Source: an uncultured Gammaproteobacteria bacterium
GTDB taxonomy: Bacteria; Pseudomonadota; Gammaproteobacteria; Pseudomonadales; Pseudohongiellaceae
DNA length: 57,866 nucleotides
Reading direction: 5' to 3'
Assembly (NCBI GenBank): GCA_903862645.1
Contig: CAIOZF010000216.1
Span: 1 to 57,866, forward strand
This document shows positions 7,242 through 46,184 of the stretch, in pieces; position 1 is the first letter of the stretch, and each line of letters opens with the position of its first letter. The position numbers were made by a program, and so were the translations under genes. Below the pieces are notes generated by a model. It saw only the letters and a list, made by a program, of their open reading frames with translations. It ran no database searches and was not told the DNA's origin.

Positions 7242-8111
7242 ATGGCAAATATTACAGCGGGTATGGTAAAGGAACTGCGTGAGCGAACTGGCTTGGGCAT
7301 GATGGATTGCAAGAAGGCGTTGGTTGAGGCCGACGGTGATATGGAAAAAGCGATCGATGATCTGCGTAAGGCCAGCGGCATGAAAGCTGCCAAGAAGGCA
7401 GGCCGTATCGCTGCGGAGGGCATTGTGCTGACCAAGGTTGCCGCCGATGGCAAGTATGGCATCATCCTCGAAGTGAACAGCGAAACTGACTTTGTGGCGC
7501 GCGACAGCAACTTCCTGAACTTTGTCAACGTCATCCTCGAACAAGCGTTTAAGACTAAACAGACTGATGTTGCAACCTTGATGGCTGGCGAACTCGAAAA
7601 CGCCCGTGAAGCGCTGGTACAAAAGATTGGCGAGAATATCAACGTGCGTCGTATCCAGCTGGTCGAAGCCGCCAGCAATGGCATGGTCGATGCCTATGTA
7701 CACAGCAATAACCGCATCGCTGTCATGGTTGCCTTGAATGGTGGCAACGATGTCATGGCAAAAGACATTGCCATGCACGTAGCGGCATTTAATCCGCTCG
7801 TAGTGCGCGCAGATGACGTGCCCAAGGAATTGCTGGCCAAAGAGGCTGAAATCTATTCGGCTCAAGCAAGAGAAAGTGGCAAGCCGGAAGAAATTATCGA
7901 GAAGATGATTCAGGGCCGTCTGCGCAAGTTTGTCGCAGAAGTCAGTCTGCTGGATCAGCCTTTCGTCAAGGATGGAGAGATCACCGTAGCGACTTTGTTG
8001 AAAAAAGCCGGAGCAGACGTGGTCAGCTTCATCCGCTACGAAGTAGGTGAAGGGATCGAGAAAGAAGAAGTAGATTTTGCGCAGGAAGTAGCAGCCGCTG
8101 CAGGACTGTGA
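7242..8111 (+). CDS. tsf: Elongation factor Ts
   Basis: Guanine-nucleotide exchange factor for EF-Tu. The 289-residue protein has the N-terminal UBA-like domain ([20 protein letters not shown]), the [13 protein letters not shown] motif that contacts EF-Tu, two core subdomains and the C-terminal module ([12 protein letters not shown]). The ATG at 7242 is preceded by GGGGCAGGAAA, a strong ribosome site. It is the second gene of the rpsB-tsf-pyrH-frr translation cluster; pyrH follows within 27-39 bp. Confidence 0.98.
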
Positions 8112-8138
8112 CATCAGGTAATCCGGACTTCTAACAGG

Positions 8139-8876
8139 ATGCAATCGCTTATGCCAAAGCTCGATAAAAAGTACAAACGCATTCTGCTGAAACTTAGTGG
8201 TGAGGCCCTCATGGGCGATGCGGATTTCGGCATTGACCCCAAGGTACTGGATCGCATGGCAGTCGAGATTGGCCAGCTGGTCGGTCTCGGCGTCCAGATT
8301 GGGATGGTCATTGGCGGAGGAAATCTCTTTCGAGGTGCTGCTCTCAATGCCGCTGGTATGGAGCGTGTGACAGGCGATCACATGGGGATGCTGGCGACGG
8401 TAATGAACGCGCTGGCAATGCGCGATGCCTTGGAGCGTGCCAGCATTGCTACCCGTGTCATGTCAGCAATTCCAATGAGCGGCGTCGTTGAACACTACGA
8501 TAGGCGCACTGCTATTCGCCATTTGCGGGCAGGCGATGTGGTCATTTTTGCAGCAGGAACTGGCAATCCATTTTTTACTACCGATTCTGCCGCCTGTCTG
8601 CGCGGCATTGAAATCGATGCTGAGCTTATCCTCAAGGCGACCAAGGTGGACGGAGTTTACTCGGCAGATCCAAAGCTGGAGCCTGATGCCGTCAAGTATG
8701 ATCGACTGAGTTTCGATGAAGTGCTGGACAAAAAGCTCGGCGTCATGGACCTTACCGCAATTGCATTGATTCGTGAGCATGATATCCCGGTGAGAGTGTT
8801 CAACATGAACCGTCCGGGAGCTCTGCTAAATAACGTAATGGGGCCGGGTGATGGCACCATTATTGAGAACATGTAG
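8139..8876 (+). CDS. pyrH: UMP kinase
   Basis: Phosphorylates UMP to UDP, the first committed step to UTP and CTP, as a hexamer of the amino-acid-kinase fold. Family motifs are [13 protein letters not shown] near the start, [13 protein letters not shown], and a C-terminal GDGTIIE. Two starts are possible: ATG 8139 (245 residues), which has AGG directly against it, or ATG 8151 (241 residues), with AGGA 11 nt upstream; the second is better placed for ribosome binding, and both retain the full kinase domain. UTP made here feeds CTP synthase (pyrG) and UDP-sugar use by the lpx genes downstream. Confidence 0.97.
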
Positions 8877-43820: not shown

Positions 43821-44957
43821 TCATGTCGATGCACTGGACTGGAGTGGCGTACTCTGCGCCGCATCCCGATACTGAGTTGGCGTCAGATTATGCAAGTCCT
43901 TGAACGCCTTGTTGAACGATGACAGTGCAGAGTACCCGACATCGAACGCTATATTAGCGATCGGCTCCCGCTGCTCGAAGGGCAGGGAGAGTCGACGGCA
44001 GGCTTCCTCGATACGGAATGCGTTAAGGAACTGATTAAAATTGCGGTAGCCCAGCTGTTTGTTGATTACCCGGCGCAAACGGTATTCCTGAATCGCCAGC
44101 CGTTCTGCCAATTCCCCGATCGTTAGCCCCGGCCTTGAGTACAACTTCTCCTTCTGAATCACATCGAAAATGCGCTCCACCTGAGCAGGGTTATCGATGC
44201 GTCGCTCCATGCTCGGAACAGGCATCAGGTGTGGCACGGCACTGATTCGAGTTCCTTCCTCACTAGGCAGGACGATCACCTGCAGCGCCTCGCCGTGCAG
44301 GCGCATCACGGTGAGGTTGAATGCCAATGTGATCAGGAACAGATAGAAGAACAGCCATTCGTTGGGGATGGGAGTCAGCGTGATGGAGTAGACGCTGGCG
44401 TAGTATTGCAGGGCCAGGATAAAGCCATTGATCAGAATCGCAGCGACCAGGACCGCCATGGCCACAGTGCAGGTGACGCGCAGTTTGCGGCGGGATTCGA
44501 CCAAGTCGCTGCTCAGGCCCTGGAATGCCATGAATACGGCATGCACGGAGAAACCGAGCATGATGAACTGCGGAATGACGTAGTACACGAAGTACTCAAA
44601 ATTAGCGGCGGGTGTGGCGCTGGAAGCAAACGAACCGTAAGCCCGCAGCCCCATGTAGACAGCCATCAGCATCCAAGCCCCAGAGGGCACGCGCTCATTG
44701 TCGACAAATAGAAAGCGCGACAGCAGCCATAGTACCGCCGGGGCCAGAGTGGCCATGCGGTAGAAGAGATACTGAACGGGGAAGTTCAGGTGAGTTTCGG
44801 GCAGATTCGCCATCACATAACAGATCAGACAGAAGCTGTAGAGGGAAAGCAACTGCCCAATGACCTGACGTCGATGAAAAGCGGCAAAAAACAGGGCGAC
44901 GAAGGTCAGCTGGGATATAGCCAGTACACTGATGGCGTTCAGTGAGAGTCCTAACAT
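43821..44957 (-). CDS. Membrane-anchored AraC-family transcriptional regulator
   Basis: A 378-residue protein with seven predicted membrane helices (about 5-27, 34-51, 62-85, 91-110, 122-145, 160-187, 199-219), a linker, and a C-terminal AraC/XylS DNA-binding domain (about 262-366) with two helix-turn-helix motifs, the second reading IANIAFDVGYSALSSFNKAFK. The layout suggests an integral sensor that binds DNA from the membrane, as in other 7TM-AraC proteins of environmental gammaproteobacteria. Ligand and targets are unknown. The gene upstream on the same strand, 95 bp away, encodes a secreted protein and may be a partner or target. Confidence 0.85.
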   Translation of the reverse strand: MLGLSLNAISVLAISQLTFVALFFAAFHRRQVIGQLLSLYSFCLICYVMANLPETHLNFPVQYLFYRMATLAPAVLWLLSRFLFVDNERVPSGAWMLMAVYMGLRAYGSFASSATPAANFEYFVYYVIPQFIMLGFSVHAVFMAFQGLSSDLVESRRKLRVTCTVAMAVLVAAILINGFILALQYYASVYSITLTPIPNEWLFFYLFLITLAFNLTVMRLHGEALQVIVLPSEEGTRISAVPHLMPVPSMERRIDNPAQVERIFDVIQKEKLYSRPGLTIGELAERLAIQEYRLRRVINKQLGYRNFNQFLNAFRIEEACRRLSLPFEQREPIANIAFDVGYSALSSFNKAFKDLHNLTPTQYRDAAQSTPLQSSAST

Positions 44958-45052
44958 GCTAAACCTCGGAAAGGCAGATTATTGTTGTTGCCAGCATGAA
45001 GCCACGTTTACGCGAGGAATGCCATCGCTTGCCTGGTTATTGCGTAATGCCG

Positions 45053-46018
45053 CTATTCGCTGACCTGCACGGTGATGTACTGGTCGTGGTAGAGGCCGCC
45101 GTCGTCGGCGCGTCCCCACAGCACATAGGTGCCCGGCTCGTCAAAAGTCACCGTGGTTTTGTAAAGTCCATCTTCTGGCACCGGAGGCGGTGTCCACAGG
45201 GCTCCCCATGGCGAGTTGGCCGAGGTACGAGTGTCTTCCCAAGGTTTGATCTGAGGTGGGTCGAAGCTGGCGTTGCCATCACCACGGTACACATTCCAGG
45301 ACAGGAACAGGCCGTTGGTCTTGCCGACGGTCGTTTGCCGGGGGGGAGTGAGGTAACGTGCCAGTCCAGTCGCTTCCGGCCGATTAACCGAGGCAGCGCG
45401 TGGTTTGGGGAGGCCGTCATCCTCCACCTTTGCCTCAATTATCAGAGGTTCCCCCATGCGCACTCGGCGGACCACCTGATCACCGACACGCTCGCCTATG
45501 ACCGACAGCACCGGTGGCACGTTCGCGCGTGATTCGGGGCTGCTGGTGCCGGCCCCCAGTGAACCTGTTTCGGAGGCAATCACCACATTGTCTACCACGT
45601 AGTCCCGAGCCAGCGTTGCATAGGCAATCTTGGTGACACCATTGATGTTGACAGTCCACGCTAGCTCTTTGTCTCCCCAATCTGCTGGAACCTGGACCTC
45701 GAAGGTAAAGCGATTGCGGCGTGGCAGGAAGTGAGTGGGTTGGCCGCGATCAGCATCGCCAGGCGTAAAGAAATTGTTCTCACCAACGGGGATGTCCAGT
45801 TCCTCTTCCCAGTTTTCATTATGGTAGCCAAACATGAAGACGAAACTGCCATCCGCATTTTCGCGCCACCCTTCATAGGCTGGCTCGACGTACTGTCCTT
45901 CTCGAAAAGTCTGCGCGGAAGACATTGGGCTGAAAATCGATCCGGCTGTCAGCAATATAAGAACTGTGATTGCGTGGAAGTGGGACGTGTTGGTGCGGGG
46001 TAGTGCGGCTACTCGCAT
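45053..46018 (-). CDS. Secreted protein of unknown function
   Basis: A 321-residue protein with a signal peptide (hydrophobic core about 15-30, cleavage expected after SSA at 35). The mature N-terminal half contains FMFGYHNENWEEELDIPVG, a GDADRGQPTHFLPRR segment and PADWGDKELAWTVNING; the C-terminal part looks beta-rich (about 165-321) and ends with a strand-like GTYVLWGRADDGGLYHDQYI, perhaps an Ig/PKD-like fold. I do not recognise a named family. ATG 46018 has AGGAG 7 nt upstream, a strong site. It lies upstream of the membrane AraC-type gene and 214 bp downstream of hsp20. Confidence 0.8.
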   Translation of the reverse strand: MRVAALPRTNTSHFHAITVLILLTAGSIFSPMSSAQTFREGQYVEPAYEGWRENADGSFVFMFGYHNENWEEELDIPVGENNFFTPGDADRGQPTHFLPRRNRFTFEVQVPADWGDKELAWTVNINGVTKIAYATLARDYVVDNVVIASETGSLGAGTSSPESRANVPPVLSVIGERVGDQVVRRVRMGEPLIIEAKVEDDGLPKPRAASVNRPEATGLARYLTPPRQTTVGKTNGLFLSWNVYRGDGNASFDPPQIKPWEDTRTSANSPWGALWTPPPVPEDGLYKTTVTFDEPGTYVLWGRADDGGLYHDQYITVQVSE

Positions 46019-46184
46019 GTTGAAGGCTCCTGTCGTGGACGCTCTATTATTGTCGTTGATCTTAGTGGCAAGACTGCAATCTTGAGCTCAATTTAGGGTA
46101 GCTCAGTGCGCTTGTCTGCCGTGAAGTGAATGATTTCTGACGAAAGTTGAAGAATTTCTGGGAGCCTGCCCCGTAGGCGAAATA

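Follow-up and report, generated by a model that had tools for sequence, protein, structure and literature searches.

What does a secreted protein of no catalogued family do beside a membrane-bound transcription regulator? The question is raised by two neighbouring genes, here termed S and R, in a stretch of 57,866 nucleotides from an uncultured gammaproteobacterium of the family Pseudohongiellaceae (the window). In an initial annotation they had been put forward as a possible sensing pair, in which the secreted protein either presents a ligand to the regulator or is its regulated product. Comparison with related genomes shows that the two genes, at first sight an isolated pair, belong to an operon that recurs and whose role can be tested.

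The locus and its two proteins

Both genes lie on the minus strand, S (45053-46018, 321 aa) upstream and R (43821-44957, 378 aa) downstream, and the ORF list of the window bears out the 95 bp that had been reported between them. The pair is flanked by ORFs with a housekeeping look, recognised by eye: on one side ORFs that we take to be mutS-, recA- and recX-like, on the other ORFs that are presumably Hsp20-like and of the 2-methylcitrate cycle. The features of the locus are as follows.

45053-46018, minus strand: gene S, secreted protein with two predicted beta-sandwich parts (ORF; alignments A1 and A2; AlphaFold2 model)
45914-46018, minus strand: signal peptide predicted in S, residues 1-35 (hydrophobic segment; helix in the model; cleavage placed by eye)
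43821-44957, minus strand: gene R, membrane AraC-type transcription regulator (ORF; HTH_18; alignment A5)
44298-44933, minus strand: membrane domain of R, residues 9-220 (hydropathy; invariant columns in 22 sequences)
43863-44111, minus strand: DNA-binding domain HTH_18 of R, residues 283-365 (Pfam)
46114-46151, minus strand: tandem AraC-like site TTCAACTTTCGTCAG...TTCACTTCACGGCAGAC with a 21-bp period, upstream of S (block conserved between the window and 7 loci of window-type)
46090-46095, minus strand: putative -10 box TAAATT (register compared over 43 promoters)

S has a single hydrophobic stretch (residues 14-32) followed by SSA-Q, which makes a plausible signal peptide with cleavage after SSA (judged by eye), and in the AlphaFold2 model the signal helix covers residues 11-28. 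The pattern DIPVG...GQPTHF...PRR, singled out in the initial annotation along with the signal peptide, is present and partly invariant: Q93, P94, T95, F97, P99 and R101 are the same in all 42 sequences of alignment A2. Searches of Pfam and NCBIfam gave zero matches above cut-off, the YtkA-like model (PF13115) scoring 13.4 bits against a cut-off of 25.9 and the choice-of-anchor X model (NF041940) 14.7 bits against 25; the CopC model of Pfam (PF04234) did not match S, and a sequence search of the PDB gave no match. A known family was also sought by a PDB profile search, and this was rejected on its only return, a chain of the alpha-N-acetylglucosaminidase family at E 0.35. As far as these searches go, S is a predicted secreted protein family without a catalogue entry in Pfam or NCBIfam, as its description as a protein of unknown family had implied.

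The AlphaFold2 model of S (pLDDT 66.7) consists of two beta-sandwich parts, with poor modelling over much of the N-terminal one. The C-terminal part (residues 162-320) is similar to Ig-like domains in general, with a best Z score of 9.2 over 100 residues, a common arrangement that says little on function. No cysteine or histidine is invariant in the S family, while many tryptophan, aspartate, asparagine and arginine residues are (A2, 42 sequences), and because of this a binding or scaffold role would be favoured for S. The near-invariant His311 is substituted in several relatives (A1), and the S protein of the window contains zero cysteine residues.

The C-terminus of R (residues 283-365) matches HTH_18 at E 6e-17, with 62.1 bits against a Pfam cut-off of 33.6, which places R among the AraC/XylS proteins. 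Hydropathy gives six clear hydrophobic segments within residues 9-220. The earlier designation of R as a 7TM AraC-type regulator stands as to its DNA-binding and membrane domains, although no clear seventh segment emerged. With membrane spans and HTH_18 in one ORF, R has the build of a one-component transmembrane regulator, in which the DNA-binding domain would face the cytoplasm. Thirty-nine of the 65 invariant columns of R fall within residues 272-364, at the DNA-binding end (A5, 22 sequences). In the same 22 sequences Q130, M133 and H139 (numbered as in the window) are invariant and lie in one predicted membrane helix, where they might form a site for copper, heme or a quinone. The genome encodes more AraC-type R-like proteins besides R. 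In a RIFCSP MAG (L064 and L046, which are the same contig) the coding sequence of R, at about 7265-8391 in L046, passes from one frame into a second that overlaps it, which is either a sequencing frameshift or a broken gene.

S most often follows a cytochrome-linked enzyme gene

A scan for relatives of S among named genomes found 256, the best 80 of which were used as loci, and the record titles point to Pseudohongiella and to gammaproteobacterial MAGs. Six titles are a misfit with Pseudohongiella-type loci (Klebsiella pneumoniae for L060, L071 and L082, Rhodoferax for L092, SAR86 for L125 and L130), and these are probably mislabelled MAG records. Gene neighbourhoods were counted for the 84 S genes in the 80 loci. 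The labels window-, C136-, C235-, g4- and g5-type (L060-L139) are our own and rest on gene order and similarity; the C136-type takes in L069 and L071, whose stretch stops short of the R position, and the g5-type consists of CYTPHM-S loci with no linked R within the stretch examined.

CYTPHM denotes here a protein in which a c-type cytochrome is fused to a second, PHM-like domain. In 58 of the 84 cases its gene immediately precedes S, in the same orientation, with a gap of -32 to +87 bp. Directly downstream of S are R on the same strand (21/84), a CopC-like gene on the opposite strand (23/84), a TonB receptor (9/84), a second S (7/84) or something else (24/84, contig edges included); a CopC-like gene on the opposite strand is also found directly upstream in 6/84. 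The homologues of S and R thus do co-occur, as a pairing of the two would have it. The pair proposed in the initial annotation does belong together, but S is above all the neighbour of CYTPHM, and the core of the system lies outside the window; the annotation had no view of this enzyme because the window copy is without its gene. The fullest operon (L056/L074, one place in one genome) comprises a divergent CopC-like gene, CYTPHM, S, a TonB receptor, a second TonB-plug protein and R.

Twenty-six S genes have no CYTPHM upstream, namely 7 of window-type, 7 of C136-type, 7 second tandem copies and 5 others (those of L108, L130, L131 and L133, and one S at the edge of a contig). The tandem S duplicates are in L102, L110, L125, L126, L132, L134 and L139, and in 6/7 both copies stand behind a CYTPHM gene; the seventh, L139, is cut off by the end of its contig. 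The genome from which the window comes has five S-like places: the window itself, C235 and C136 (73% identity each), C190 (55%) and C85 (38%, partial). The S of the window has no adjoining CYTPHM, and the S genes on C235, C190 and C85 do; on C85 a distant S adjoins a distant CYTPHM on the same strand in reversed order. Two head-to-head CYTPHM-like genes without an S neighbour are found on C215 of this genome (L159, 5738-7240, minus strand, and 7472-8860, plus strand).

A PHM-like fold predicted for CYTPHM

When 21 CYTPHM members were scanned singly against Pfam at E up to 1, no copper type II monooxygenase model was matched, and the only matches were weak and cytochrome c-like; sequence profiles likewise gave no link between CYTPHM and PHM. 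It is the predicted fold that connects them. The AlphaFold2 model of CYTPHM is of low confidence (pLDDT 57.1, pTM 0.62), and with it Foldseek placed rat PHM first (1phm, E 1.7e-6); the human dopamine beta-hydroxylase came in at rank 16. In a structural comparison (VIA) the same low-confidence model superposed on PHM with Z 13.9 and an rmsd of 3.4 A over 246 residues, and so has the PHM/dopamine beta-hydroxylase fold; dopamine beta-hydroxylase itself gave Z 13.2 and the next fold, PNGase, 8.4.

The copper ligands of PHM are His107, His108, His172, His242, His244 and Met314, and the PDB titles among the Foldseek matches include PHM mutants at H107, H108, H172 and M314. In CYTPHM the CxxCH motif and an HH, a single His, an HxH and a Met are invariant columns (A3, 26 sequences), the candidate copper ligands being H240 and H241, H296 and H315, H365 and H367, and M447. 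One of the aligned sequences is only 29% identical to the first. CYTPHM accordingly looks like a c-type cytochrome with a PHM/dopamine-beta-hydroxylase-like copper monooxygenase domain, as judged from the predicted fold, and the joined cytochrome could supply electrons to that domain. PHM-type enzymes amidate animal hormones, and dopamine beta-hydroxylase makes noradrenaline; the usual neighbour of S is, by predicted fold, a bacterial relative of these enzymes.

S and CYTPHM are largely limited to one bacterial family

S was found in 24 of 57 genomes (its own included), all 24 of them of the Pseudohongiellaceae, and in 0/21 genomes from other families of the order. A wide distribution of S was ruled out with a class-wide sample of 369 genomes, in which its own genome alone had it. 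Within the family S is present in 114/137 genomes, a count that is not independent of the 80 loci, which overlap with these genomes, and a genome may have up to at least 17 S matches; a protein family outside the models of Pfam and NCBIfam is thus carried by most of one bacterial family. All 114 S-bearing genomes also have CYTPHM. Among the 23 family genomes without S, 20 have no CYTPHM at E <= 0.001, and three (G432, G031 and G468) have weaker matches; we infer the S-negative status of three family genomes. R was detected at E <= 1e-30 in 96/137 family genomes, and all 96 bear S.

Outside the family, distant CYTPHM matches were found in 3/228 sampled genomes at E <= 1e-20, and L151, L152 and L153 are the sole relatives in that sample. 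Together with L043 (2428-4122, plus strand) they are longer CYTPHM relatives of 564-690 aa with a start that looks thioredoxin-like by eye.

A tandem site in S-operon promoters of several types

In the DNA upstream of window-type S genes one block is conserved, a tandem TTCA..TT.CGTCA / TTCA.TT..CGG.AGA, and other types of S operon have the same tandem layout in register, with a period of 21 or 22 bp. The window site is an exact match to CGTCAG-N19-AGAC. Besides the window, an exact CGTCAG-N18-20-AGAC is found in 14/29 S-operon promoters of R-linked types, with the proviso that the pattern was picked after three promoter groups had been inspected and that related loci are not independent; for this reason the fair controls are R-less loci and other genes, in which the exact site occurs in 0/31 promoters (all of g5-type CYTPHM-S loci) and in 0/769 upstream regions, respectively. 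By type, the exact site is present in 2/7 window-type, 2/10 C136-type, 10/12 g4-type and 0/12 C235-type promoters. With at most one mismatch it is found in 5/7 window-type, 3/10 C136-type and 11/12 g4-type promoters, and in 5/12 of the C235-type, all five at another, more distal place, against 0/31 R-less promoters and 19/769 other upstream regions. Promoters with less than 150 bp of upstream DNA were left out, and an exact site in L093 stands outside the 14/29, the ORF start there having been set too far upstream.

A position weight matrix built from the window-type sites only offers a cleaner test than the chosen pattern, and its outcome appears mixed. Measured against the 99th percentile of a background drawn from the same loci, training sites included, it was exceeded in 8/12 C235-type and 2/10 C136-type promoters (one of the latter, L076, at an odd distance), in 0/12 of the g4-type and in 1/39 of the other rows without a linked R (L118). 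The C235-type operons have a diverged site of the same layout and are without a linked R.

In the window the putative -10 box TAAATT lies 18 bp past the GCAGAC end of the tandem site, and this end takes the place of a -35 element. Of 43 promoters, 21 have a -10-like hexamer (at least 4/6 matches to TATAAT) 18 bp beyond AGAC and 14 have one at 19 bp; no other spacing from 12 to 25 bp is represented more than 5 times. On these sequence grounds the spacing is the layout of a putative activator seated next to -35. The AraC-like tandem site common to S operons lends support to the part of the initial annotation in which S is the regulated product, and it provides a direct handle on the inducer and hence on the substrate. 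A search of the window's own genome for a wider regulon with the proximal half-site was given up, since it yielded 5 matches where the reversed control yielded 3, which is no clear enrichment. In C235-type loci (e.g. L083 and L087) an extra conserved block lies farther upstream, before CYTPHM and beyond the tandem site, with the inverted repeat TTCACTAT-N15-ATAGTGAA (spacing by eye) and CTGACG.

The window copy is a kept paralogue

The S proteins of the window and the 7 window-type loci form one clade with support of 95/88 (8 rows), in a tree that leaves out S proteins shorter than 290 aa, those containing stop codons or numerous X, and alternate loci of the g5-type. Further genomes of the genus have S and R at the corresponding syntenic position. 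A unique chance neighbourhood was considered and is ruled out by this recurrence and by the clade. In pairs with the window synonymous sites are saturated, so dN/dS was taken from L060 and L061, where it is 0.11 for S and 0.08 for R, indicating purifying selection. Decayed CYTPHM was sought near the window S and at 14 more enzyme-less S loci (6 window-type and 8 C136-type, including the C136 of the own genome), and none was found, the one match being of 15 residues at E 0.37. Given the clade of window-type S genes, the failure to find a CYTPHM remnant and the strong purifying selection wherever an estimate could be made, the S-R pair of the window is a kept paralogue rather than debris. That CYTPHM is absent beside the S genes of the window, of 7 window-type and of 7 C136-type loci means that S can be retained without a linked enzyme, and the window locus looks like a cut-down copy of a fuller operon with a heme-and-copper enzyme.

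Proposed role and its alternatives

We consider it probable that R activates the S operon and that S, once exported, serves as an accessory to a heme-linked copper monooxygenase system, of which the window has a copy without the enzyme gene. CYTPHM would be the catalytic subunit of a periplasmic oxidation system, and S would act in physical contact with it. R would be the one-component membrane regulator of the system, its membrane domain sensing a signal and its cytoplasmic AraC domain binding the tandem site that abuts the -35 of the S operon; once bound it would activate, rather than repress, the operon, R itself included. The S of the window, as part of a specialised S-R paralogue, would serve copies of the enzyme whose genes lie at other places in the genome, and the R of the window may also act in trans on the enzyme operons. 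A more far-reaching version is doubtful, if worth stating: that the Pseudohongiellaceae have a system of their own in which a heme-plus-dicopper monooxygenase, a dedicated S, TonB receptors for uptake of substrate or copper, and a multi-pass AraC-type R that reads copper or redox state via Q130, M133 and H139 act together, the S-R pair of the window being a catalyst-free module from which the enzyme operons are controlled in trans.

Three other explanations were weighed. The window-type S might be a periplasmic ligand-binding sensor that presents its ligand to the membrane domain of R, independently of the copper enzyme. The retention of its clade (95/88, 8 rows) without an enzyme gene would fit, as would the fact that, flanking housekeeping genes apart, R is its sole adjacent same-strand partner, and an Ig-like part with no invariant Cys or His (A2) suits binding and not catalysis; but the S family mostly sits beside the enzyme and an adjacent R is absent more often than present, and we hold this sensing arrangement to be rather unlikely, though less so than the two explanations that follow. 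S might instead carry copper or electrons for the enzyme and not be a structural or substrate-binding subunit. CopC-like genes adjoin many S genes (on the opposite strand, 23/84 downstream and 6/84 upstream), therefore copper is handled near by; a carrier is, however, hard to reconcile with zero invariant His or Cys in 42 S sequences, with His311 replaced in several relatives, and with a window S that has no Cys and does not match CopC (PF04234), and so appears less probable again.

It is least probable of all, in our estimate, that R and S owe their adjacency to descent alone and that the tandem site is the target of another AraC-family protein. Further R-like proteins of the AraC type are encoded in the genome, and C235-type operons have a diverged site of the same layout with no linked R, both of which this explanation would accommodate; against it stands the exact site, which occurs at loci of R-linked types and at 0/31 R-less loci. 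The accessory role of S under activation by R is thus the reading that we prefer.

Relation to known systems

Like the AraC/XylS proteins (HTH_18, PF12833), R has a C-terminal HTH_18, and a tandem site with a period of 21 or 22 bp is found by the -35 upstream of S operons; the araI site of the AraC system has a 21-bp period. AraC/XylS proteins have a soluble effector-binding N-terminus, whereas R has a multi-pass membrane domain. Transmembrane transcription regulators (TTRs) such as ToxR, CadC and TcpP resemble R in that a single chain holds both the membrane part and the DNA-binding domain. They have one or few membrane spans, whereas R spans the membrane six times or more and has an AraC domain. 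A term search of a 2023 survey (PMC10269533) gave no occurrence of 'AraC' in its main text.

CYTPHM shares with PHM and dopamine beta-hydroxylase the predicted fold and the order of the conserved HH, H, HxH and M, and differs from them in being joined to a c-type cytochrome domain and encoded in bacterial operons with S, some of which have TonB receptors and CopC-like genes alongside. Many S loci include a gene for a CopC domain protein (PF04234), either divergent from the operon or flanking it, and S itself is not such a protein. Among the matches listed in literature searches on bacterial PHM with cytochrome c, on ascorbate-dependent monooxygenases with TonB, on Pseudohongiella, on copper or TonB in Pseudohongiellaceae and on membrane AraC regulators there was no paper that describes this system, which is weak evidence of absence; none of the matches listed for copper or TonB in Pseudohongiellaceae contained the family name. 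As regards the matches listed, the system combines known kinds of parts in a way for which no description was found, together with one unnamed protein family.

Animal PHM partners with a propeller lyase. NHL-repeat propeller proteins are encoded near S loci in L041 (4136-4957, minus strand), L057 (8105-9223, plus strand) and, more weakly, L055 (2892-3728, plus strand), and by analogy these could be a second enzyme.
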